Numbered from the stretch's first letter, positions 45,396 to 58,042 are shown. The stretch: DNA of 64,000 nt from Lysobacterales bacterium (GCA_022844135.1 JALHMG010000005.1:13324-77323); one strand, 5' to 3'. Notes: a model not told the origin generated them from the letters alone. Numbers and translations: made by a program.

Positions 45396-46489
45396 TTGAG
45401 CATGATCGAAGCAAATCCTGCGAATGATGATCGATATCTCGACCATCCTTACGAGCTTGCCGGCCGCCTGATCGACCCGGTTCCGGGTACGCTCAGTTGG
45501 CAAGGTCAAACAACGCATTTACGCCGCAAAGAACTTGAGGTGCTGGCGATTCTGGCGAATGCTGCCGGTGCGCCAGTCACGCGCCAGACTTTCGTTGCAG
45601 CAGTGTGGAATGGCAATGATCTGGTTGGCGATCGTGGTTTGACCGACACCATTTTTTCCTTACGCCGTGCCCTACGCGACGACGATCCAACGCTGGCGCT
45701 GATCCGCACCATTCCGCACCGTGGTTATCAGCTATCGGTGTCAGTGCGGCCCGTTGCAACGCCGCCGCCCAGGCTCCTGCCCGGTGCCGAGGTGCTGCAT
45801 AGTTCGGGTTGGCGTTTGCTGCGCAAGCTCGGCGAATCGTCGCTCAGCGAGACTTGGTTGGCGGAGCCATCGGAATACAACGCGGAAGTCGAAAACACCG
45901 CTCGTCGGGTATTTCGTTTTTGTCGCTCTGAGAGCTACCTGCGACGCTTGCAGCGCGAAGTGACGTTGCTGCGTTACGTCAATCAAAGCCTGTCCGAGCA
46001 CCCTGGCTTCGCGGTGATCCGCGATTGGCAGTTAGACCAACCGCCGTACTTCCTGGCACGCGATTTCGCTCGATACGGCAGCCTGGGCGAGTGGACCCAG
46101 GCGCAAGGCATGCCGCCAGCGCCGCCACTGCGCCTGATGATGGAACTAAGCGAAGCGCTGGCAGCGTTACATCAACTCGGCATCGTGCACCAGGACTTGA
46201 GCGTGGATCGAATTCTGGTCGACGAGACCGATGCCGGGCCGCAGTTCAGAATTAGCGCGCTCGGCTTAGGCGCTCTGGCTGATCGCAGCAAACTGGCGCC
46301 GCTGCGGATCACCGCGTTGGGATTGACGGTTATATCGAGCTTTATGCGCAGAAGCACAAAATCCAGCCGCAGCTGGACTACGATACGAAAGCTGGGCCGT
46401 GGCGACGGATGATCGAAGTGATGCAGAAAGATCCAGATCGCCCAGCTGCAGAAGTACTCTCCGGACAAACTGGAAGTACGCGCAAGTAG
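45396..46489 (+). pseudogene. internally deleted copy of the winged-helix/kinase/TPR gene at 48831
   Basis: The 5' part (start TTG 45396 or ATG 45402) encodes the winged-helix domain (DDRYLDHPYELAGR through RTIPHRGYQLSVSV) and most of the degenerate kinase domain, up to ITALGLT at 46327. The sequence then jumps to the far C-terminus of the paralogue. In a +2 frame, 46328-46489 encodes GYIELYAQKHKIQPQLDYDT and WRRMIEVMQKDPDRPAAEVL, homologous to AYIDLYARRHELRP and WRKILEAMKQDPARPVAEIL of the intact protein. About 1,000 codons (second kinase, membrane helix, TPRs) are gone. The current ORF ends with a frameshifted tail at 46412. The truncated product could still be made as a cytosolic DNA-binding/pseudokinase protein. 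Confidence 0.9.
45949..46328 (+). repeat. 380-bp near-identical tract shared with 49384-49763
   Basis: The two segments are in direct orientation at an offset of 3,435 bp and differ at only five positions that I can count. The sequence immediately upstream, in the same pair of genes, is clearly more divergent. The tract ends exactly at the deletion joint of the truncated copy (46328). Sharp edges inside homologous genes indicate recent gene conversion or recombination between the paralogues. Confidence 0.9.
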
Positions 46490-46650: not shown

Positions 46651-48201
46651 TCAAAAAATCGCCTCGCTGGTGCACAGCTCGCTGAAGTCCTCAACGAAGA
46701 TTTGATCCTGGCCATCTAAGATAACAATCGGCGCGATGCTGCGTCCTGGAAGCAGCTGTCCGTTCGAATCAGTCAAGCGCAAGACAAAGCGTTCAGGTGA
46801 CTCAACAACCTGGTCATCAATGATTGGAACATCTACTCGTTTGAATTCCGCATTGCCTGCAACCCAATTCAGGACACCCGAGGTGCTCGTATAGTCGCTG
46901 CCGGCAAGCGCGGTGCCATCTTGCGTTGCAAAATTGACCGACAATGCGCCTGACGTATCTCCAGTGCGTCTGACCAGCAGTCTCGCGTTTGAATCACCCT
47001 CTTGAACGAAAGGTCGACAAGGAACAATAAACGCACTCACTGGAGCAGGTGGCGGCGATGCGGGGCGATCGCTGATTGTGAGAAGGACGAAGTTTCGTTG
47101 CAAAACCACGCCCTCGGGTGCCGCGATCGTGAATGCCACAAACTCGAGCCCCTCACTTTGGTTATCGGCGAGAATTCTGAAAGGAATATCCTTGACCAAA
47201 TCCCCCACCGCAAAATTGAGTTCGCCTGTGATTGGGCCGATAAAATCGACACCCGCGGTTGCCGTGGCGTCAGGGTTTGCGGCAAACGTAAAGCGCAGCG
47301 CTTGCGTCGCTGGCCGATCCAGCCGCAGAGCCAGCCGTGCCTCCGACTCACCTGCAGCCGGCTCTGTCGCAAATGCATCGAACGGGATAGCAAAAGGTGC
47401 CGGCGGCGGCGGTCGCACACCATCGTCATCAAAAATTCCGCCGAAGCCGATTTGTGGTGGAATCGTCGTCGTCGGATCAGACACCTCAAGCCTGAAGCTT
47501 TCGAAATTCTCGGCGGTGGTGTCGCCAATGACATTCACCGTAACCTCGACGCTGGCCTGATTAGGTTGCAAAGTTATGTCGCCGTTGGTGCCTTGAAAAT
47601 CCGATCCAGCTGTCGCACTGTCGGCAACCGTACGAAACCGCAAGTTCAGCGCCGAGTTGGCCGACTGTGAATTGGTTCGCGATACCGTGAAGCGCAGCGG
47701 CGTGGTGCCAGAATCGCCTTCGAGCACAGCCTCACCGCGAACGGAAAAGGTAACGCCGGGCGGTGGTGGCATGACATCGTCGTTATCAATGCCGCCAATC
47801 GCAACCGCGACAGGTGGCGCGCCGGGCGCGGCCGCGGGATCACGTAACACCAGACGAAGAACTTCAAACGGTTCCGGCTCTGTATCGCCGATCACCGACA
47901 CCGGAATTTCGGCGAAGGTTGCCGTTGGGGATAAGGTCACGGTGCCTTGAGCGGCCTCGTAGTCCTCCCCGGACGTCGCGTTGTCGTCTTCAGTGCTGTA
48001 GGCCAAGGTGATTGTCTGGCCGGCGGCGAACGGAGCCAGACCAATGCGAAACAACATGGGGCGCGTGCCGGAATTGCCCTCTTGGACGACCTCGCCCCGA
48101 GCCAACACGGCTTGGGGCGGATTAGTTGTGGGTTCTTCTGCACGAAGCAGATCGCTAAGAAAAAGAAGAGCAGTTAGGACGGATATCTTTGCGGCTGACA
48201 T
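46651..48201 (-). CDS. secreted Calx-beta repeat protein
   Basis: The 516-residue product has a signal peptide (MSAAKISVLTALLFLSDLLRA) and four Calx-beta-like Ca2+-binding repeats of about 110 residues, each with 'EG(D/N)SG...F...' and 'A..G.DY/F...G.(V/I)T(L/V)' and 'E..E.F.L.L' elements (for example AVLEGDSGTTPLRFTVSRTN, FVQEGDSNARLLVRRTGDTS). Its C-terminus, IFVEDFSELCTSEAIF, is a longer variant of the N-G-F-E-type tail. GGAGA precedes the ATG at 48201; the longer frame upstream is not credible. The first CGA-box element lies 110-147 bp upstream. The 161 bp after its stop contain no assignable gene. Confidence 0.85.
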   Translation of the reverse strand: MSAAKISVLTALLFLSDLLRAEEPTTNPPQAVLARGEVVQEGNSGTRPMLFRIGLAPFAAGQTITLAYSTEDDNATSGEDYEAAQGTVTLSPTATFAEIPVSVIGDTEPEPFEVLRLVLRDPAAAPGAPPVAVAIGGIDNDDVMPPPPGVTFSVRGEAVLEGDSGTTPLRFTVSRTNSQSANSALNLRFRTVADSATAGSDFQGTNGDITLQPNQASVEVTVNVIGDTTAENFESFRLEVSDPTTTIPPQIGFGGIFDDDGVRPPPPAPFAIPFDAFATEPAAGESEARLALRLDRPATQALRFTFAANPDATATAGVDFIGPITGELNFAVGDLVKDIPFRILADNQSEGLEFVAFTIAAPEGVVLQRNFVLLTISDRPASPPPAPVSAFIVPCRPFVQEGDSNARLLVRRTGDTSGALSVNFATQDGTALAGSDYTSTSGVLNWVAGNAEFKRVDVPIIDDQVVESPERFVLRLTDSNGQLLPGRSIAPIVILDGQDQIFVEDFSELCTSEAIF

Positions 48202-48310
48202 ACGACTCTCCGAAAAAATCAAGAGGAAGTGAAGGACAGACATGTGCCACTGAGCGTGTCGAATCCAGGTTGCCGCTCGATTCGAGCAGGCAAGGTTCGG
48301 TTTTTCAAAT

Positions 48311-48348
48311 CGAATAAACCCGAATGCGTGCCATTCGAGTTTTTTCGA
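48311..48348 (+). promoter_or_regulatory. CGA-box element copy A (10-15-10 spacing)
   Basis: CGA triplets, mostly within TTCGA/TCGAA, occur at 48311, 48321, 48336 and 48346. This makes two direct-repeat pairs with 10-bp pitch separated by 15 bp. The element is 110-147 bp upstream of the Calx-beta gene (minus strand). Winged-helix regulators of the OmpR/CadC type commonly bind direct repeats with 10-11-bp pitch. The surrounding 629-bp gap (48202-48830) holds no ORF I trust. Confidence 0.65.
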
Positions 48349-48830
48349 GATGTCCGCCAGCAAAACCACGCTCGAAAAAGCGCTGCGCGATCTCGGTATC
48401 GAACGGCCGCTCACGATTCGTCGACATCTAGCCCGACGACCGGCGGAACGCGAGGTTGTTTGGTGTTCCTGCAAGCTCGAGCTTGCGCGCCAAACGTTCA
48501 CATCAAGATCGCGAAACGGCCTGGCGCAATCTTCACGCTCTACGACGTGACGAGCTCGTCTGATCGAGTCCCAGAACGATGCTCCGAGGCGTTCGAATGG
48601 GATCACGGTGTGATATGCGCTCTTCGATCGACACCTGGCAGCGCGCAAGTGCTCGATCCATGGATAGCGAGGGGCCTGAGGAAAGGCACGAGGAGCGTCA
48701 TGGCGCATGGCGACCACGAGCAACGCGACATTCGTGCCGAAAGGTGCGGAAAAATTCCAGTTACTTCTATGTCACCGCACTAGACTATCCTGCAGAAGCG
48801 GGGTTGTTTCAGACTTTTGCGGGGTAGCGG

Positions 48831-51800
48831 TTGAACAAGCTCGAAGCGTTCACGACGATCGATGATCGATATCTCGACCATCCTTACGAGCTTGCCGGTC
48901 GTTCGATCGACCCGTTGGCGGGAACGTTGAGCTGGCAAGCGCAAACAACACATCTGCGGCGCAAAGAACTTGAGGTGCTGGCGGTGCTGGCCAGTGCTGA
49001 GGGCGCCACAGTATCGCGCCAAACATTTGTCAAGGCGGTGTGGGACGGCAATGATCTGGTTGGTGATCGTGGCGTAAGCGACACCATTTTTTCCCTGCGC
49101 CGCGCTTTGTGTGATGATGACCCTAAGCTGCCGCTGATCCGCACCATTCCCCGTCGGGGATATCAACTTTGCGTGCCCGTGAAGTCCGTCGCGGCGTCGC
49201 CGAACGCATTTATGCCTGATTACGAGTTGTTGCATAGCTCGGGATGGCGTTTGGTGCGCAAGCTCGGCGAATCGGCGCAAAGCGAGACGTGGCTCGGCGA
49301 GCCATCCGTATACAACGGCGAACTGGAAAACACGGCCCCGCGCGTGTTTCGTTTTTGTCGCTCGCAAGCGTATCTACGACGCCTGCAGCGCGAAGTGACG
49401 TTGCTGCGTTACGTCAATCAAAGCCTGTCCGAGCACCCTGGCTTCGCGGTGATCCGCGATTGGCAGTTGGACGAACCGCCGTACTTCCTGGCACGCGATT
49501 TCGCTCGATACGGCAGCCTGGGCGAGTGGACCCAGGCGCAAGGCATGCCGCCAGCGCCGCCACTGCGCCTGATGATGGAACTAAGCGAAGCGCTGGCAGC
49601 GTTACATCAACTCGGCATCGTGCACCAGGACTTGAGCGTGGATCGAATTCTGGTCGACGAGACCGATGCCGGGCCGCAGTTCAAAATGAGCGCGCTCGGC
49701 TTAGGCGCTCTGGCTGATCGCAGCAAACTGGCGCCGCTGCAGATCACCGCGTTGGGATTGACGATGGGTGCCGAGGAGGCAGGCGCGCAAGCGAGTTCTG
49801 CAGACGACGTTGCCGCACTCGGGTTGGTGTTCTTGCAGCTCTCGGTCGGCGATTGGCACGCCAAGCCCAATGAAACCTGGCTCGGACGCGTGACGGACAC
49901 GGATCTTCAAACGCTGCTTAGGCAGTGCCTGGGCGCGGCAGAGGCACGTCCGAGTGCAATCGAGCTTGCGCGACAACTGCGCGCACTGACGCCAGGCGCG
50001 ACGGTTGACGCGCAAGCGAATCCTGTTGCTCCGCAATCGGGTCCCGAAAACGCGCTTGCCGTGGCGTCGATCCAGCCTGTTAAGCGGCCTTCGGCGCCTG
50101 AAACCATCGGCCGCTACCGCTTGTTGGATCGCCTCGGCGAAGGCGGCATGGGCATGGTCTATCTGGCCGAACAACGCGACCCGTATCGCAAGGTTGCGCT
50201 GAAAATCATCCGCTCAGGTTTGGATGGCCAACAAATTCTGAGTCGATTTGAGGCCGAACGCCAAGCCCTGGCGATGATGAATCATCCCAATGTGGCCAGT
50301 GTGCTCGATTCTGGCCTGGCCGACGATGGTCGGCCCTATTTTGCGATGGAGTACATCGCCGGCGAAGACATCAAGGGCTACAGCGACCGCCACCATTTGA
50401 ACATCGGTGCGCGCGTCAAACTGTTCTTGCAGGTCTGCGATGGTGTGCTGCATGCGCATCAAAAAGGCGTACTGCATCGCGACATCAAGCCCAGCAATTT
50501 GATGGTAGCCGCTACAACGGACCAGGCGGGCATAGTGAAGGTAATCGACTTTGGCCTGGCCAAGTCGCTGCATGGCAAGCTCGCGACGCAGACCTTGCAC
50601 ACCAGCTTCGGCGCCTTTGTCGGCACACCCGTTTACAGCAGTCCCGAGCACGTTTCCGGCAGCGCTGCAGGCGTGGATACGCGCAGCGATATTTATTCCC
50701 TGGGCGTAGTCCTCTATGAGCTGCTGGTTGGCATGACCCCGATTGCCAGCGAGTCGCTCAACAATCTTGAGCCAGAAAAAATCCGCGAGATCGTCTGCAA
50801 ATCCAAACTGCCTACGATGCGGGAACAGCTGCAAAACACCTCGGCGGACAGGCGAGAACAACTTGCCCAGCACCGTTCGATCAAAGTGGACGAGCTGCCC
50901 AAGGCACTCGAAGGCGATTTGTCCTGGGTCGTCGGCAAATGCCTGGAGCGCGACCCAAACGATCGATATGCCTCGGTGCTGGCGTTGAAGGATGACCTGG
51001 AGCGCTGGCTGGACTTGCGGCCGGTCGAGGCAAGGCCTACCTCCGGTTGGTATCGCTTTCGCAAGTTGGTGCAGCGCAATCGCGGACCGGCGCTGTTGAT
51101 CGCGTGCGCTGCAGCAGCATTGTTGATGACAACCACAGCCGCAGTCGTTGGCTATCTGCGAGCGGAGCGCGCATTGGAAACATCGCGTTTGGCGGAAGCC
51201 GAAGCGACCAAGGCCGCTGATTTTCAGGTCAGGCAGATGCAATCGGTCGATCCGGCTGCGATGGGCCTGAGCCTGCGGGAACGCTTGGTCGATGCGGTAA
51301 AAGAACGAGGCGCCGAACGCGGCTGGGATCCGGTGGCGGTGACGCAGGGCGAGCAGGCGTTGGGCAGACTGATCGAAGGCGTGAACTTCACCGATCTGTC
51401 GCTGGAGCAGCTAGAAGCGCATCAGTTCCGACCGACACTGGCCAGCATCACAAACGACTTCAAAGACCAACCGCTCTTGCAGGCGCGCCTCTGGCAAAGC
51501 CTGGCCGATAGCCTGGTCAAACTTGGGCGCATCGAGGCCGCTACCGAGCCGCAGCGACTGGCGCTGGAGCAGCGTCAGCGCTTGCTCGGAAAGGATGACC
51601 CTCTATCGCTGATCTCGTTGCGCAGCCAAGGATCGCTGCTGTTGAAGAAGGGCCAGCACCCACAGGCTGAGGCCGATCTGCGAACCGCGGCAACGTCTAT
51701 GCGGCGCGTCTTGGGGAGCCGTCACCCGGAGACCCTGGCGTCGCAAATGAAGCTCTGCGAGGCATTGTTTGCACAAGATCGCATCGAAGAAGCGCTGGTG

Positions 51801-53030
51801 CCGGCACAGGAAGTACTGGACGCGTCGCGACAGGCGCTCGGCGAAGATGATCGGACAACACTCGATGCCAAGTTGTTGATGGGCAATATCCTGTTCCGGC
51901 TTCAACGGTATGCGGAAGTCGAAGCCTATTACCAGGAGGCTCTTGATGGTTACAAGCGGGTGCATGGCAACCAGCATCCCGAAACCTGGAAGCCGATGAA
52001 CAACCTGGCGGCAGTTTTCCTGATAACGGGCCGATACGCCCAGGCCGAGACCGTCCTGGCGCAGTTGTTGTCCGATCAGCGCTTGCGACTTGGCAACGAT
52101 CACGAGAGTACCTTGACGACTCAGTTGAATCTGACGACCGCCCTCAGATACCAAGGGCGATTAGCCGAATCCGAAGATATGACGCGCAAGCTCCTGCTCA
52201 TCGTGCAGCAAACGTTGGGCAAGGAGCATCCGAAATCCCTGGAGATCGAATCGAACCTGGCGCGACTGCTGCTCGAACAAGGCAAGGTCGATGATTCGAT
52301 CGCGCTCTACAAGGGTCTCTTGGCGACGACCCGTCGCACGCTGAGCAGAGACGATCGGACCTCCGACAGATATGTGATTTTCTTGGCGATTGCATTGCGG
52401 AAGAATGGCGAATTCAACGACGCCCAGCGTTTGCTCAGCGATCTGCTGCGGGCGCAACGTAGCGAGTTGGGCGATTCGCACCGCAACACGCTGGCGACGA
52501 TGGCCGAATTGGCAAACGTTTCTGAAGCGCAAGGCGATGTCGACGCAGCGGAATCCATGCTCCGGGAAGCATTGGCCGGCCGGCGAGCGCTTTTTGGCAA
52601 CACCAGCCGGGACACGCTGAACACTCTCGATCAACTCGGCCAGTTTCTTCGCAGGCGGGGAAAACTGGAAGAAGCTGCGACGATGGGCCAGGAGGCCATC
52701 AACGGCGCTTCTAACCAACCCTATCCGCAGAATCCGATCGGTCTTTATCTCATTCACCAGGCCGGAACGCTGATGGACCTGCAGCGAATCGACGATGCCG
52801 AAAGCCTGCTGGACAAGGCCAGAACCCGGTTGTCTCAGGATGCTTACCCGTCGAGGAATTCGGTAGAAGAGCTTGCCGAGGCTTACATTGATCTTTACGC
52901 CAGAAGACACGAACTCCGGCCGGAGCCTGGCTTGGTCTTGGAAGCGGAGTCGTGGCGAAAAATACTCGAAGCCATGAAACAAGATCCCGCTCGACCGGTC
53001 GCCGAAATATTGTTGACCAAGACCGATTGA
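48831..53030 (+). CDS. winged-helix / pseudokinase / Ser-Thr kinase / membrane / TPR fusion protein
   Basis: The 1399-residue product starts at TTG. Residues about 8-113 form an OmpR/CadC-type winged helix (LRRKELEVLAVLASAEGATV, TIFSLRRALCDD, RTIPRRGYQL). Residues about 137-330 resemble a kinase but lack essentials: HQDLS replaces HRD-x-K, and no DFG is present. Residues 426-720 are a complete kinase: GEGGMGMVY loop, VALKII, HRDIKPSN (H549), DFG (D573) and SSPEH. A membrane helix follows at about 752-778, then a long TPR region to about 1340. The DNA-binding and kinase parts should be cytoplasmic and the TPRs periplasmic. Such a fusion suggests a one-protein sensor-kinase-transcription factor. 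Targets are unknown; the CGA-box elements nearby are candidates. Confidence 0.88.
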   Translation: MNKLEAFTTIDDRYLDHPYELAGRSIDPLAGTLSWQAQTTHLRRKELEVLAVLASAEGATVSRQTFVKAVWDGNDLVGDRGVSDTIFSLRRALCDDDPKLPLIRTIPRRGYQLCVPVKSVAASPNAFMPDYELLHSSGWRLVRKLGESAQSETWLGEPSVYNGELENTAPRVFRFCRSQAYLRRLQREVTLLRYVNQSLSEHPGFAVIRDWQLDEPPYFLARDFARYGSLGEWTQAQGMPPAPPLRLMMELSEALAALHQLGIVHQDLSVDRILVDETDAGPQFKMSALGLGALADRSKLAPLQITALGLTMGAEEAGAQASSADDVAALGLVFLQLSVGDWHAKPNETWLGRVTDTDLQTLLRQCLGAAEARPSAIELARQLRALTPGATVDAQANPVAPQSGPENALAVASIQPVKRPSAPETIGRYRLLDRLGEGGMGMVYLAEQRDPYRKVALKIIRSGLDGQQILSRFEAERQALAMMNHPNVASVLDSGLADDGRPYFAMEYIAGEDIKGYSDRHHLNIGARVKLFLQVCDGVLHAHQKGVLHRDIKPSNLMVAATTDQAGIVKVIDFGLAKSLHGKLATQTLHTSFGAFVGTPVYSSPEHVSGSAAGVDTRSDIYSLGVVLYELLVGMTPIASESLNNLEPEKIREIVCKSKLPTMREQLQNTSADRREQLAQHRSIKVDELPKALEGDLSWVVGKCLERDPNDRYASVLALKDDLERWLDLRPVEARPTSGWYRFRKLVQRNRGPALLIACAAAALLMTTTAAVVGYLRAERALETSRLAEAEATKAADFQVRQMQSVDPAAMGLSLRERLVDAVKERGAERGWDPVAVTQGEQALGRLIEGVNFTDLSLEQLEAHQFRPTLASITNDFKDQPLLQARLWQSLADSLVKLGRIEAATEPQRLALEQRQRLLGKDDPLSLISLRSQGSLLLKKGQHPQAEADLRTAATSMRRVLGSRHPETLASQMKLCEALFAQDRIEEALVPAQEVLDASRQALGEDDRTTLDAKLLMGNILFRLQRYAEVEAYYQEALDGYKRVHGNQHPETWKPMNNLAAVFLITGRYAQAETVLAQLLSDQRLRLGNDHESTLTTQLNLTTALRYQGRLAESEDMTRKLLLIVQQTLGKEHPKSLEIESNLARLLLEQGKVDDSIALYKGLLATTRRTLSRDDRTSDRYVIFLAIALRKNGEFNDAQRLLSDLLRAQRSELGDSHRNTLATMAELANVSEAQGDVDAAESMLREALAGRRALFGNTSRDTLNTLDQLGQFLRRRGKLEEAATMGQEAINGASNQPYPQNPIGLYLIHQAGTLMDLQRIDDAESLLDKARTRLSQDAYPSRNSVEELAEAYIDLYARRHELRPEPGLVLEAESWRKILEAMKQDPARPVAEILLTKTD

Positions 53031-53440: not shown

Positions 53441-53986
53441 ATGACCCATCTCAGTACGTTAGCCTTCGCCATGCTTGCTATGTCCGTCTCTGCCGCCGCC
53501 AGGGCCTGCCCATCTGATTTGCCGACCGTGCTGTCGCTCACGGTTGTGCCCGGCGAGATTCGCGGACTGGAGCACGTGCTGCACGTTGGCATGCAAGGCG
53601 ATGGCTGCCTGCGTGTGCGACGGCCCGAGCATTGGCCTGAACCGGGGCGGTTCGGCGGCGTAAGGGCTGCGCCATCGCTGCGCGCATCGCCGGCGACGTC
53701 GCAAATGCACCTGCTCGCGGGATTCGATGGTGAAAAGGTCGCCGCTGAACTCGCTGCGCTGGAGGAGGCGCGCGGGCAGGCCTTCGCCGTCTTGGGTGCT
53801 GATCGCTATGTGCTGCGCTGGACCGACGATCTCGGGCGAGGCTTTGAGGCGGCTTTCCCGGGCGTTTTCCAATATGCCGAACGGTATCCCGAACGCGCGG
53901 ATTTGGCGGCGTTCTCGGCGCTGGTTTCGATGCTGCAGGCCGAAGCCGAACGCGACGATCTGGTGGAAATGGAGGCCACACCATGA
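53441..53986 (+). CDS. secreted hypothetical protein
   Basis: The 181-residue product has a signal peptide (MTHLSTLAFAMLAMSVSAAARA) and a mature protein with two Cys (ACPSDL, GDGCLRV) and an amphipathic C-terminal half. GGAGGA gives a strong ribosome site. It overlaps the metalloprotease gene by 4 nt (ATGA), so the two are translationally coupled. An inhibitor, chaperone or processing partner of that protease is one possibility, from context only. Confidence 0.7.
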   Translation: MTHLSTLAFAMLAMSVSAAARACPSDLPTVLSLTVVPGEIRGLEHVLHVGMQGDGCLRVRRPEHWPEPGRFGGVRAAPSLRASPATSQMHLLAGFDGEKVAAELAALEEARGQAFAVLGADRYVLRWTDDLGRGFEAAFPGVFQYAERYPERADLAAFSALVSMLQAEAERDDLVEMEATP

Positions 53987-55362
53987 GCCGGCAACCGCGA
54001 GTTACTCGATGGGCCCTGTCACGCCGACGTACAACGACTGCGATTGCGATCATCCTGGGAATCTGCTGGCAAGCCCCCGCGTCTGCCGGCGCCTATGTGT
54101 TTGCCAACGCCTCGCGATTGGACAGCGTCACCCACCCGCAGGTCTACTCCGGAACCGGCGGTACGCTGGCTGACCTGACGATCTGCATCGACGTCAGCGT
54201 CAATCCTGCACTCGCGGCGCAGGCCGAAGGTTCGGTTCTGAAAGCCGTGGCCACCCACAATCGCTTCGTGTCATTGCCGGCAGACACACTGGCGTTCAAT
54301 GCGGCGACAGACATTCCCACGGGCCAGGTCGACTTCGAGTCGACCCTGCTGCACGAGATAGGCCACTGCATCGGACTGGCCCATCCCAACCACGCGACCG
54401 AGTCTGGCATCGCCGAGCCCGGCCGAAATGGCACCAAGAGCGCGGTCGGCGCGAATGGAAATTTCGACCAGAACGCAGGCTTGGACGGACTGCACGGATC
54501 GAGCGATGATCTTCGCGGCGACGACATCAATCTGCATTGGTACATCCGCAACCAGAACAATCCGGGCCTGCTGCCACCGATTGTCGACTCCACCAGCATG
54601 ATCCGCGAACTCACCGCGCTGCCCGCCGGACATCTGTTCGCGGCCAATGCGGATCGCAACGTGATGGCCGCACTCGGCTTCGCCAACAGCGAAGCCGTGA
54701 TGCAGCAGGGCGCAGGATTCAATGAGGCGCAGCGGCACTTCCAGCATGACGATCTCGCCACATTGCTTCTCGCCCGCGCCGGCCTCGACCGCGTGGCCGG
54801 CACGAGCGACGACTATCGCTACGCGCTACGCTATGTCGGGCAATTGAACAACCCGTCGAATGCCAACTGCAACCTGCGCGTTCGACTTGACACCAGCACC
54901 GGATTCGCAGTGTGCGGGGTCGGCAGCCAGGCGCTGGGCAATGGTGATCTGCGGATCACCAGCGCCAATCTGGCGTTCAACAGCAACACGGCGTGGTTCT
55001 TCACGCCAGGACCGAACACGCTGACAACGATCACGGCCGACACGCCGGACCCAAGTCCGGTCGGCCAGCCATATACGGTAAACGTGACCGTGCGCGAGGC
55101 GGCTGGCATCGCGATCACCGGCGAGCCGCGCGGCACCGTCGTCGTCACTGATGGAGCGCCGGCGCCGAATACGGCGACGTGCACGATCAGCTTGTCGGGT
55201 ACCGCCAACGAAACCGGGAGTTGCCAGCTCACCTCAACCCTCGCGGGCACGCGCGATCTCACCGCCGACTTCGTCGGTTTCGCTGGTTGGGACGGCAGCC
55301 GCGGCACTGCGCCGCACAGCACGGGCACAGTGGACGCGCTGTTCAGCAACGGCTTCGAATAG
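53983..55362 (+). CDS. secreted zincin metalloprotease-like protein with Ig-like domain and NGFE tail
   Basis: The 459-residue product has an Arg-rich leader and hydrophobic signal (TTTAIAIILGICWQAPASAG). The zinc-binding site is LHEIGHCIGLAHPNH, an exact H-E-x-x-H-x-x-G-x-x-H metzincin motif at about residues 124-134. A Met-turn cannot be placed with certainty. An Ig-like/bacterial beta-sandwich domain (about 355-445: ADTPDPSPVGQPYTVNVTV, SGTANETGSCQLTSTLAG) follows, ending DALFSNGFE. A secreted peptidase role is likely; substrate unknown. The upstream coupled gene may assist it. The stop lies only 10 bp before the MITE target duplication. Confidence 0.82.
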   Translation: MSRQPRVTRWALSRRRTTTAIAIILGICWQAPASAGAYVFANASRLDSVTHPQVYSGTGGTLADLTICIDVSVNPALAAQAEGSVLKAVATHNRFVSLPADTLAFNAATDIPTGQVDFESTLLHEIGHCIGLAHPNHATESGIAEPGRNGTKSAVGANGNFDQNAGLDGLHGSSDDLRGDDINLHWYIRNQNNPGLLPPIVDSTSMIRELTALPAGHLFAANADRNVMAALGFANSEAVMQQGAGFNEAQRHFQHDDLATLLLARAGLDRVAGTSDDYRYALRYVGQLNNPSNANCNLRVRLDTSTGFAVCGVGSQALGNGDLRITSANLAFNSNTAWFFTPGPNTLTTITADTPDPSPVGQPYTVNVTVREAAGIAITGEPRGTVVVTDGAPAPNTATCTISLSGTANETGSCQLTSTLAGTRDLTADFVGFAGWDGSRGTAPHSTGTVDALFSNGFE

Positions 55363-56557: not shown

Positions 56558-58042
56558 TTACTCGAAGCCGTTCACCAGCACGCGCTGGCGTTGCACCGCG
56601 CCCTGATCGATCCAGTCGCGAATCAGGCGCTGCTCATCGAGGCTGAGCGCGGCGCGGCCAAGCGGCATGCGCGAGCCGACGCCGGGTGCGTTGCAGTTGA
56701 CCTTGCGGAACAGCAGGCTCGCGCCTGATGAAAACGGGACGACGCGCTTGATGGTGGGATCCTGCGAAGAGTCGACATTGACCAGCGCCGCGAAGGAGTT
56801 CTCGGGCGCAAACGAGAGCCCTGCAGAGACATTCGGAGAGTGACACGTTGTGCATCGGGCTGGTTGCCCTGGGCCGCCGGTAAAGATGGCTTGGATCGAC
56901 TCGTACTCGACGCTGGCGTCCAACGGCGCAGGATCGAGCGTATCGCAACCTGGATCCGGTGCCGTCCAGATCAACGCCTCGGTTCGATTGTTAGCCGTGT
57001 TGAAACCGTAACCGGAAATGATCAAGAACCCGTTCACTGTGGAGATATCGGTTGCCGTGCTCGACGAGAACTCCGATGGCACAAAGGTGTGCAGATTGAC
57101 CCACGACGCAGCGGTTCCACGCCACAGGCTCGCGCGTTCACCCATGGCCGTTTGGGCGGACCCCACCTGCAAGCCGTTGAAGACGCCGTTCGCTCGGGAG
57201 GACGATGCGCCTGCCGGGTTGAGGTTCACCCAGGATGCCGCCGAACCCGTCCAAAGACTCGCAACTTCTGGACGGTCGCCACCGGGCTCTGAAGCTGGCA
57301 GTTGGACCCACCCTACCTGCTGACCTCGACTCACGGCAGTTGCCCGGGAAAGCAAACCGCTTGGCGGATGGAGATCGACATGCGAGGCCGCCGTTCCTGA
57401 CCACAACGATGCCCTTAGGGCCGAACTCCCACCAAAACCCCCAACCCACGTTCCCACCTGCTGCACGCCGTCGGTACCCAGGGCTTGCGAGGCGCCGGTT
57501 CCATTGGGCGGGTCGAGTCGGACAAAGGACTCCGCCGACCCAGTCCACATGACTGCGGAGCTGACAAAGGCAGCGGAGAACTGGGCGACACCAACCTGCT
57601 GCCCGCCGGCAGCGTCAAACGCCTCAGAAAAGGCCCAGCCTTCTGGGTGGAGGTCCACCATGGAGCTTGCGCTCCCGGTCCAGAGCATCGCACGAGTCGG
57701 CACCGTCAGACTGGTAAAACTGGCCCGTCCCACCTGCTGCCCATCGCCGCCGCCCTGCACCAACGAGCGCGTCGAACCGGGCGGATGGAGATTAACCATT
57801 GAGCTCGGCGTCCCGTCCCAAACTGCAGCGTTTTGAACGCCAACACCGAGTGTGATGTATCCCCCTTGCAGCGGGCCAGCGCTTTCCAGGCGAGAGGCCG
57901 TCGCGGCTCCCGGCGGATGGAGCGTGGTCACCGTCCACGTTGATTGTGCGTTCGCGTGGGCGACCATACCCAATACCGAAATGGTCGCGAATACGGCGGA
58001 GCGAATCGAATACGGCTTTGCTGACTTGCCCTTTGGACTCAT
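56558..58042 (-). CDS. secreted repeat protein with a C-terminal CxxCH module and NGFE tail
   Basis: The 494-residue product has a signal peptide ending VAHANA. About seven repeats of roughly 45 residues follow, with the pattern A-x-LW-x-G-(S/T)-A-x-S-x-V-(D/N)-L-(H/N)-P-x-G ... Q-Q-V-G, probably a beta-propeller-like HAF-type repeat. From about residue 390 there is a c-type heme motif (RCTTCHSPN) and a RMPLG...LSLDEQRLIRDWIDQGA segment seen in cytochrome-like modules of secreted proteins. The end is VLVNGFE. GAGG is placed before the ATG. The CGA-box copy C lies 104-141 bp upstream. Confidence 0.82.
   Translation of the reverse strand: MSPKGKSAKPYSIRSAVFATISVLGMVAHANAQSTWTVTTLHPPGAATASRLESAGPLQGGYITLGVGVQNAAVWDGTPSSMVNLHPPGSTRSLVQGGGDGQQVGRASFTSLTVPTRAMLWTGSASSMVDLHPEGWAFSEAFDAAGGQQVGVAQFSAAFVSSAVMWTGSAESFVRLDPPNGTGASQALGTDGVQQVGTWVGGFGGSSALRASLWSGTAASHVDLHPPSGLLSRATAVSRGQQVGWVQLPASEPGGDRPEVASLWTGSAASWVNLNPAGASSSRANGVFNGLQVGSAQTAMGERASLWRGTAASWVNLHTFVPSEFSSSTATDISTVNGFLIISGYGFNTANNRTEALIWTAPDPGCDTLDPAPLDASVEYESIQAIFTGGPGQPARCTTCHSPNVSAGLSFAPENSFAALVNVDSSQDPTIKRVVPFSSGASLLFRKVNCNAPGVGSRMPLGRAALSLDEQRLIRDWIDQGAVQRQRVLVNGFE

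Follow-up and report, generated by a model that had tools for sequence, protein, structure and literature searches.

A putative winged-helix receptor protein of Lysobacterales that carries a pseudokinase and an intact Hanks-type kinase in one chain

Introduction

What can a single protein do when it carries a winged-helix (wHTH) DNA-binding domain, a degenerate kinase, an intact kinase, a membrane helix and an array of TPRs, and where did its degenerate kinase come from? These questions are raised by an open reading frame of a Lysobacterales bacterium, located at 48831..53030 (+) of the window, by which we mean the whole 64 000-nucleotide stretch of DNA that was analysed. No published description of wHTH-kinase or wHTH-pseudokinase-kinase-TPR proteins was found in the open-access full-text literature, and neither is described in a survey of prokaryotic kinase architectures (PMC1262709).

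Domain organization of the window protein

The reading frame starts with TTG, immediately 3' of an in-frame stop, and encodes 1399 aa. Five parts follow one another on the + strand, those of the wHTH and the two kinases being delimited by HMMs built on the family's own sequences: an OmpR/ToxR/CadC-type winged-helix domain (residues 20-120, 48888..49190; 129 bits), a first kinase-like domain, K1 (residues 128-390, 49212..50000; 324 bits), an intact Hanks-type kinase, K2 (residues 424-734, 50100..51032; 365 bits), a single transmembrane helix found by hydropathy and basic on its N side (residues 755-773, 51093..51149), and a TPR array, predicted to be periplasmic, at about residues 951-1331 (51681..52823). 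Pfam assigns PF00486 (Trans_reg_C) to residues 38-113 (E 4.2e-13), Pkinase to two stretches (best 429-716, total E 3.6e-53) and TPR_12 to seven stretches (E 1.6e-55). The original prediction, made from the DNA alone, had thus placed the five parts and their order correctly. Domain calls cover the window protein and six other members, and since the same order was found in nine proteins, a chance arrangement is dismissed.

When a wHTH-K1 profile was searched against known structures, the wHTH part matched ToxR (7nmb, 1.6e-16) and CadC (5ju7, 6e-15), and the kinase part matched GCN2, TYK2, RIPK1, StkP, PknA and PknB. CadC/ToxR regulators likewise have an N-terminal OmpR-type wHTH; their one transmembrane helix and C-terminal sensor part would have counterparts here in the hydropathy helix and the TPR array predicted to be periplasmic. 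However, they have no enzymatic domain between the wHTH and the membrane, whereas in the window protein two kinase domains stand there. A relationship to defence kinases was considered and rejected: the MAD6 and PglW models gave 168 bits against a cut-off of 460 and 93 against 990, and the likeness is confined to the kinase domain, with no other part in common. Judged by its domains, the protein would be a membrane-bound regulator of the Hanks-kinase type that incorporates a putative DNA-binding pseudokinase module, and its parts are shared with known systems.

K1 as a pseudokinase

K2 has a complete set of motifs (GEGGMG, VALK, HRDIKPSN, DFG and SPE). In K1, by alignment, the Lys of the beta-3 (VAIK) motif is replaced by R174 (49350..49352, +), an Arg found in all nine double-kinase proteins; HRDxKxxN is replaced by HQDLSVDR (residues 265-272, 49623..49646, +); and ALG occupies the DFG position (residues 288-290, 49692..49700, +), with the APE segment missing downstream. 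The glycine loop is also lost in an alignment of the double-kinase proteins. The HxD aspartate is kept in the K1 of the window copy, and the HRD Asp is lost in seven of the nine. Judged on its sequence, K1 is therefore a pseudokinase, as was first proposed from HQDLS in place of the catalytic motif and the absence of DFG, to which the alignment adds the missing beta-3 Lys.

The initial proposal would have fallen without a kinase fold in residues 130-340, and such a fold is present according to HMM, Pfam and structure prediction. An AlphaFold2 model of residues 1-400, run with five sequences, reached a mean pLDDT of 67, with the wHTH and the kinase C-lobe well predicted and the N-lobe weak (pLDDT 50-65); in a Foldseek search of the PDB with this model, the best 50 matches were all protein kinases. 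A model of residues 1-780, spanning K1 and K2, had a mean pLDDT of 50, too poor for reading contacts between the two domains.

Double-kinase and single-kinase families

Full-length paralogues of the window protein are encoded on three other contigs of the same genome (C10, C6 and C58; 1522, 1272 and 1392 aa), and five more double-kinase proteins occur beyond it in Lysobacterales or unplaced genomes: one in a Lysobacterales MAG of the same family as the window organism (L103/L070), one in a Rhodanobacteraceae MAG (L104), one in an unplaced pond MAG (L105) and two in genomes from another family of the order (L106 and L107), with L105 and L107 cut by contig ends. The same domain order was thus recovered in other genomes, as the original prediction had suggested looking for. 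The double form was carried by 4 of 398 sampled genomes of the order and was seen in none of the class and phylum samples outside it, counts that are lower bounds because scoring was confined to a few top candidates in each genome. A search of viral contigs returned no relatives. The genes around the double-kinase loci show no conserved neighbourhood, except for genes encoding a J-domain-like protein upstream in two f9 genomes (loci L133 and L134), the second of which also has a gene for a DnaK-like ATPase upstream of the double-kinase gene.

The three intact paralogues are strong evidence that the architecture has been duplicated, which had been deduced from a truncated copy upstream of the window gene. 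That copy is real, although it is the weakest evidence of the duplication. Sequence comparison and Pfam place it at 45396..46412 (+), where the wHTH and part of K1 are followed by an internal deletion and a frameshift; it is about 84% identical to the window protein across 313 aa. Past the deletion lies the C-terminal end of the gene, out of frame (GYIELYAQKHKIQPQ..., 46330..46489, +; C5:59645-59791 matches residues 1349-1397). The damaged and full genes are 58-87% identical per 60 bp up to 45968 and about 99% identical across the next 360 bp (45969-46328 versus 49404-49763), up to the deletion point. The likely origin of this patch is a recent event of gene conversion or recombination whose tract stops at the deletion, and the damaged copy, by the same comparison, is probably a pseudogene.

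Between the two copies lies a gene (46651-48723, -) that reads like a secreted protein with Calx-beta repeats. Two secreted-looking proteins farther downstream (53983-55362, +, and 56558-58042, -) end in ...LFSNGFE and ...VLVNGFE, and similar FxNGFE-like ends are found beside other paralogues (L130 and L132), perhaps a shared C-terminal sorting signal.

The same profile also finds wHTH-kinase-TM proteins with one kinase, mostly of 850-1000 aa. Matches to one or other form came from up to 26 of the 98 genera sampled in the order, with the double form accounting for no more than a few of these matches. The single form also occurs in five genomes outside the order and three times in the window genome (contigs C39, C16 and C7). 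By these profile matches, the wHTH-kinase-TM protein with one intact kinase is widespread in the order and reaches a few genomes beyond. Its wHTH and kinase are homologous end to end to the wHTH-K1 of the double form, and in both forms the transmembrane helix follows the kinase. A TPR match is confirmed by Pfam in the C16 protein, one of the few single-kinase proteins whose C-terminal part was scanned. In contrast to the double form, however, the second kinase is absent and K1 is catalytically intact in nearly all; the five from outside the order read VFKF or VVKL, HKD[LI]KPxN and DFG. Three single-kinase proteins (L085, L112 and L113) have about 170 extra residues separating the wHTH and the kinase.

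Origin of the pseudokinase

A midpoint-rooted maximum-likelihood tree of 75 kinase domains, whose bootstrap was not fully settled, unites the K1 domains of the double-kinase proteins in a clade (100/98) with the single wHTH-kinases next to it (100/94), and sets these two groups apart from the plain kinase-TPR enzymes (100/100). The K2 domains also form one clade (100/99), nested among the genome's plain kinase-TPR enzymes, and the well-supported pairs of the K1 subtree recur in that of K2. The simplest reading of these trees is that the N terminus of a wHTH-kinase was fused once to a PknS-type kinase-TM-TPR protein and that the product has been passed on whole. The pseudokinase had first been described as an extra piece between two known families, and here the phylogeny and domain distribution point the other way: it is the wHTH's native kinase, and K2-TM-TPR (PknS/ECF43 type) is the addition.

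Residue counts from the alignment follow the same division. The beta-3 Lys is kept in none of the nine double-form K1 domains (Arg in all), compared with 31 of 32 single-form K1 domains and 9 of 9 K2 domains; for the DFG Asp the figures are 0/9, 31/32 and 9/9, and for the catalytic Asn 0/9, 32/32 and 9/9. The HRD Asp of K2 is likewise kept in all nine. Because all double-kinase proteins share one origin, the uniform loss in K1 is largely one evolutionary event. Moreover, loss in K1 need not follow the gain of K2, since one single-kinase protein (L038; contig C7:99034; 469-3228, +) has a degenerate kinase, with HQSLNARN and NLG, and no second kinase; it is an independent pseudokinase.

PknS-type kinases and the sigma-gene neighbourhood

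The nearest solved structure to K2 is PknS (9EED, E 2.6e-51). PknS (XAC4127) of Xanthomonas citri is a membrane-spanning kinase whose TPRs lie in the periplasm. It phosphorylates the ECF43 sigma factor EcfK directly, and its periplasmic TPR part modulates, and appears to restrain, autophosphorylation (PMC13147305). Like PknS-EcfK and other ECF43-associated Hanks kinases, the window protein has an intact K2-type kinase, one transmembrane helix followed by C-terminal TPRs, and a predicted transcriptional output. Unlike them, it has an N-terminal wHTH-pseudokinase and no adjacent ECF43 sigma gene, the nearest PF07638 sigma gene lying 32.5 kb away.

This difference extends to the other wHTH-linked kinases. 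Of the 26 strong PF07638 sigma genes in the window genome, 25 have a kinase no more than 2 kb away; conversely, such a gene is found near 25 of 51 plain kinase matches, compared with none of 7 wHTH-linked kinases (p = 0.016). A sequence search of fetched loci found an ECF43-type sigma gene in 12 of 25 plain versus 0 of 43 wHTH-linked loci (Fisher p = 7e-7), counts in which related loci are not independent and all plain loci come from the window genome. Since sigma genes are missing beside wHTH-linked kinases, the fused wHTH seems to be the output here, in the role that the sigma factor otherwise has.

The signalling set of the window genome is very large, with roughly 58 kinase-domain loci, 26 strong ECF43-type sigma genes and 35 PF00486 matches in 5.3 Mb. 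It includes an apparently decaying pair (L010; G000:C10:36027-37247), in which a kinase gene with two in-frame stops lies beside an ECF43-type sigma gene.

A model for the double-kinase receptor and its alternatives

These observations may be combined in a model, to which we give a probability of about 0.5, of a membrane transcription regulator that is complete in itself. In the periplasm, the C-terminal TPR array would sense a ligand or protein, and its signal would cross the one membrane helix to control K2, presumably an active PknS-type Ser/Thr kinase. K2 would then act on the N-terminal wHTH-K1, either in cis or between dimer partners. K1, which in an ancestral wHTH-kinase-TM receptor was the kinase and has since lost catalysis, may now serve as a docking or gating domain between K2 and the wHTH, and the fused wHTH would provide the output by binding promoters, in place of a separate ECF43 sigma factor that is phosphorylated. 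One candidate mark of such signalling, a conserved Ser/Thr phosphosite in wHTH-K1, was set aside: T105 is invariant but lies within the common OmpR wing motif and is thus uninformative.

The eukaryotic regulators JAK (JH2-JH1) and GCN2 place a pseudokinase immediately before an active kinase on the same polypeptide. The tandem arrangement of the window protein is alike by analogy, whereas its origin is independent and its kinase group, sensor and output differ. More tentatively than the model itself, one may regard these proteins as a receptor family with a promoter-binding domain, an allosteric pseudokinase and an active kinase in one chain, that is, a prokaryotic counterpart of JAK-type gating, which could have arisen through the joining of an active wHTH-kinase receptor to one of PknS type, after which the first kinase was freed from catalysis.

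One may argue instead that K1 is no more than an inactive relic serving as a spacer, which would make the protein essentially a PknS-like receptor kinase to which a wHTH is tethered. The strength of selection bears on this. In three pairs from different genomes, K1 dN/dS (NG86) was 0.20-0.24, against 0.04-0.16 for K2 and 0.09-0.19 for the wHTH, with dS values near saturation limiting these ratios. K1 exceeded K2 in every pair (0.24 versus 0.11, 0.20 versus 0.04 and 0.21 versus 0.16), as a spacer might, and the substitutes at its degenerate positions vary by member (the DFG Asp to E, G or A; the Asn to S, T, A or R), which suggests continued drift. In addition, the lost APE/activation segment of the window K1 is as expected of a decaying domain and would speak against gating by K1. 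Nevertheless, the dN/dS of K1 stays close to 0.2, all nine proteins preserve the fold and length of K1, and each has Arg at the beta-3 position, which is not random. By these ratios K1 is retained under selection, weaker than that on K2, and the spacer reading appears rather unlikely.

More doubtful still is the possibility that the main function of the protein is to phosphorylate other targets as a Ser/Thr kinase, with wHTH-K1 having given up DNA binding to serve as a docking platform for substrates. It would agree with the fully intact K2 motifs and with the phosphorylation of separate proteins by PknS-type kinases (PMC13147305), but not with the low dN/dS of the wHTH, the near invariance of its wing (TIPRxGYQL) or the lack of a sigma-factor partner encoded nearby. 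Finally, it is very improbable that K1 keeps a non-canonical nucleotide-dependent activity, like some pseudokinase-fold enzymes, since the shared beta-3 Arg would fit such an activity but the DFG Asp and catalytic Asn are lost in every member, the glycine loop is gone, and elsewhere K1 has no common replacement residues.

Implications

The self-contained regulator outlined above would give PknS-type kinases a second route to transcription, through a DNA-binding domain in the same chain rather than a phosphorylated sigma factor. Moreover, the double-kinase and single-kinase proteins together provide a natural before-and-after series for the birth of a pseudokinase, with a first kinase that is intact in many genera and has lost catalysis in the clade that gained a second kinase. 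The pseudokinase of the double form traces back to an intact kinase that many related bacteria carry joined to the same wHTH, and these proteins thus appear to be an obscure signalling family in which the formation of a pseudokinase can be followed.
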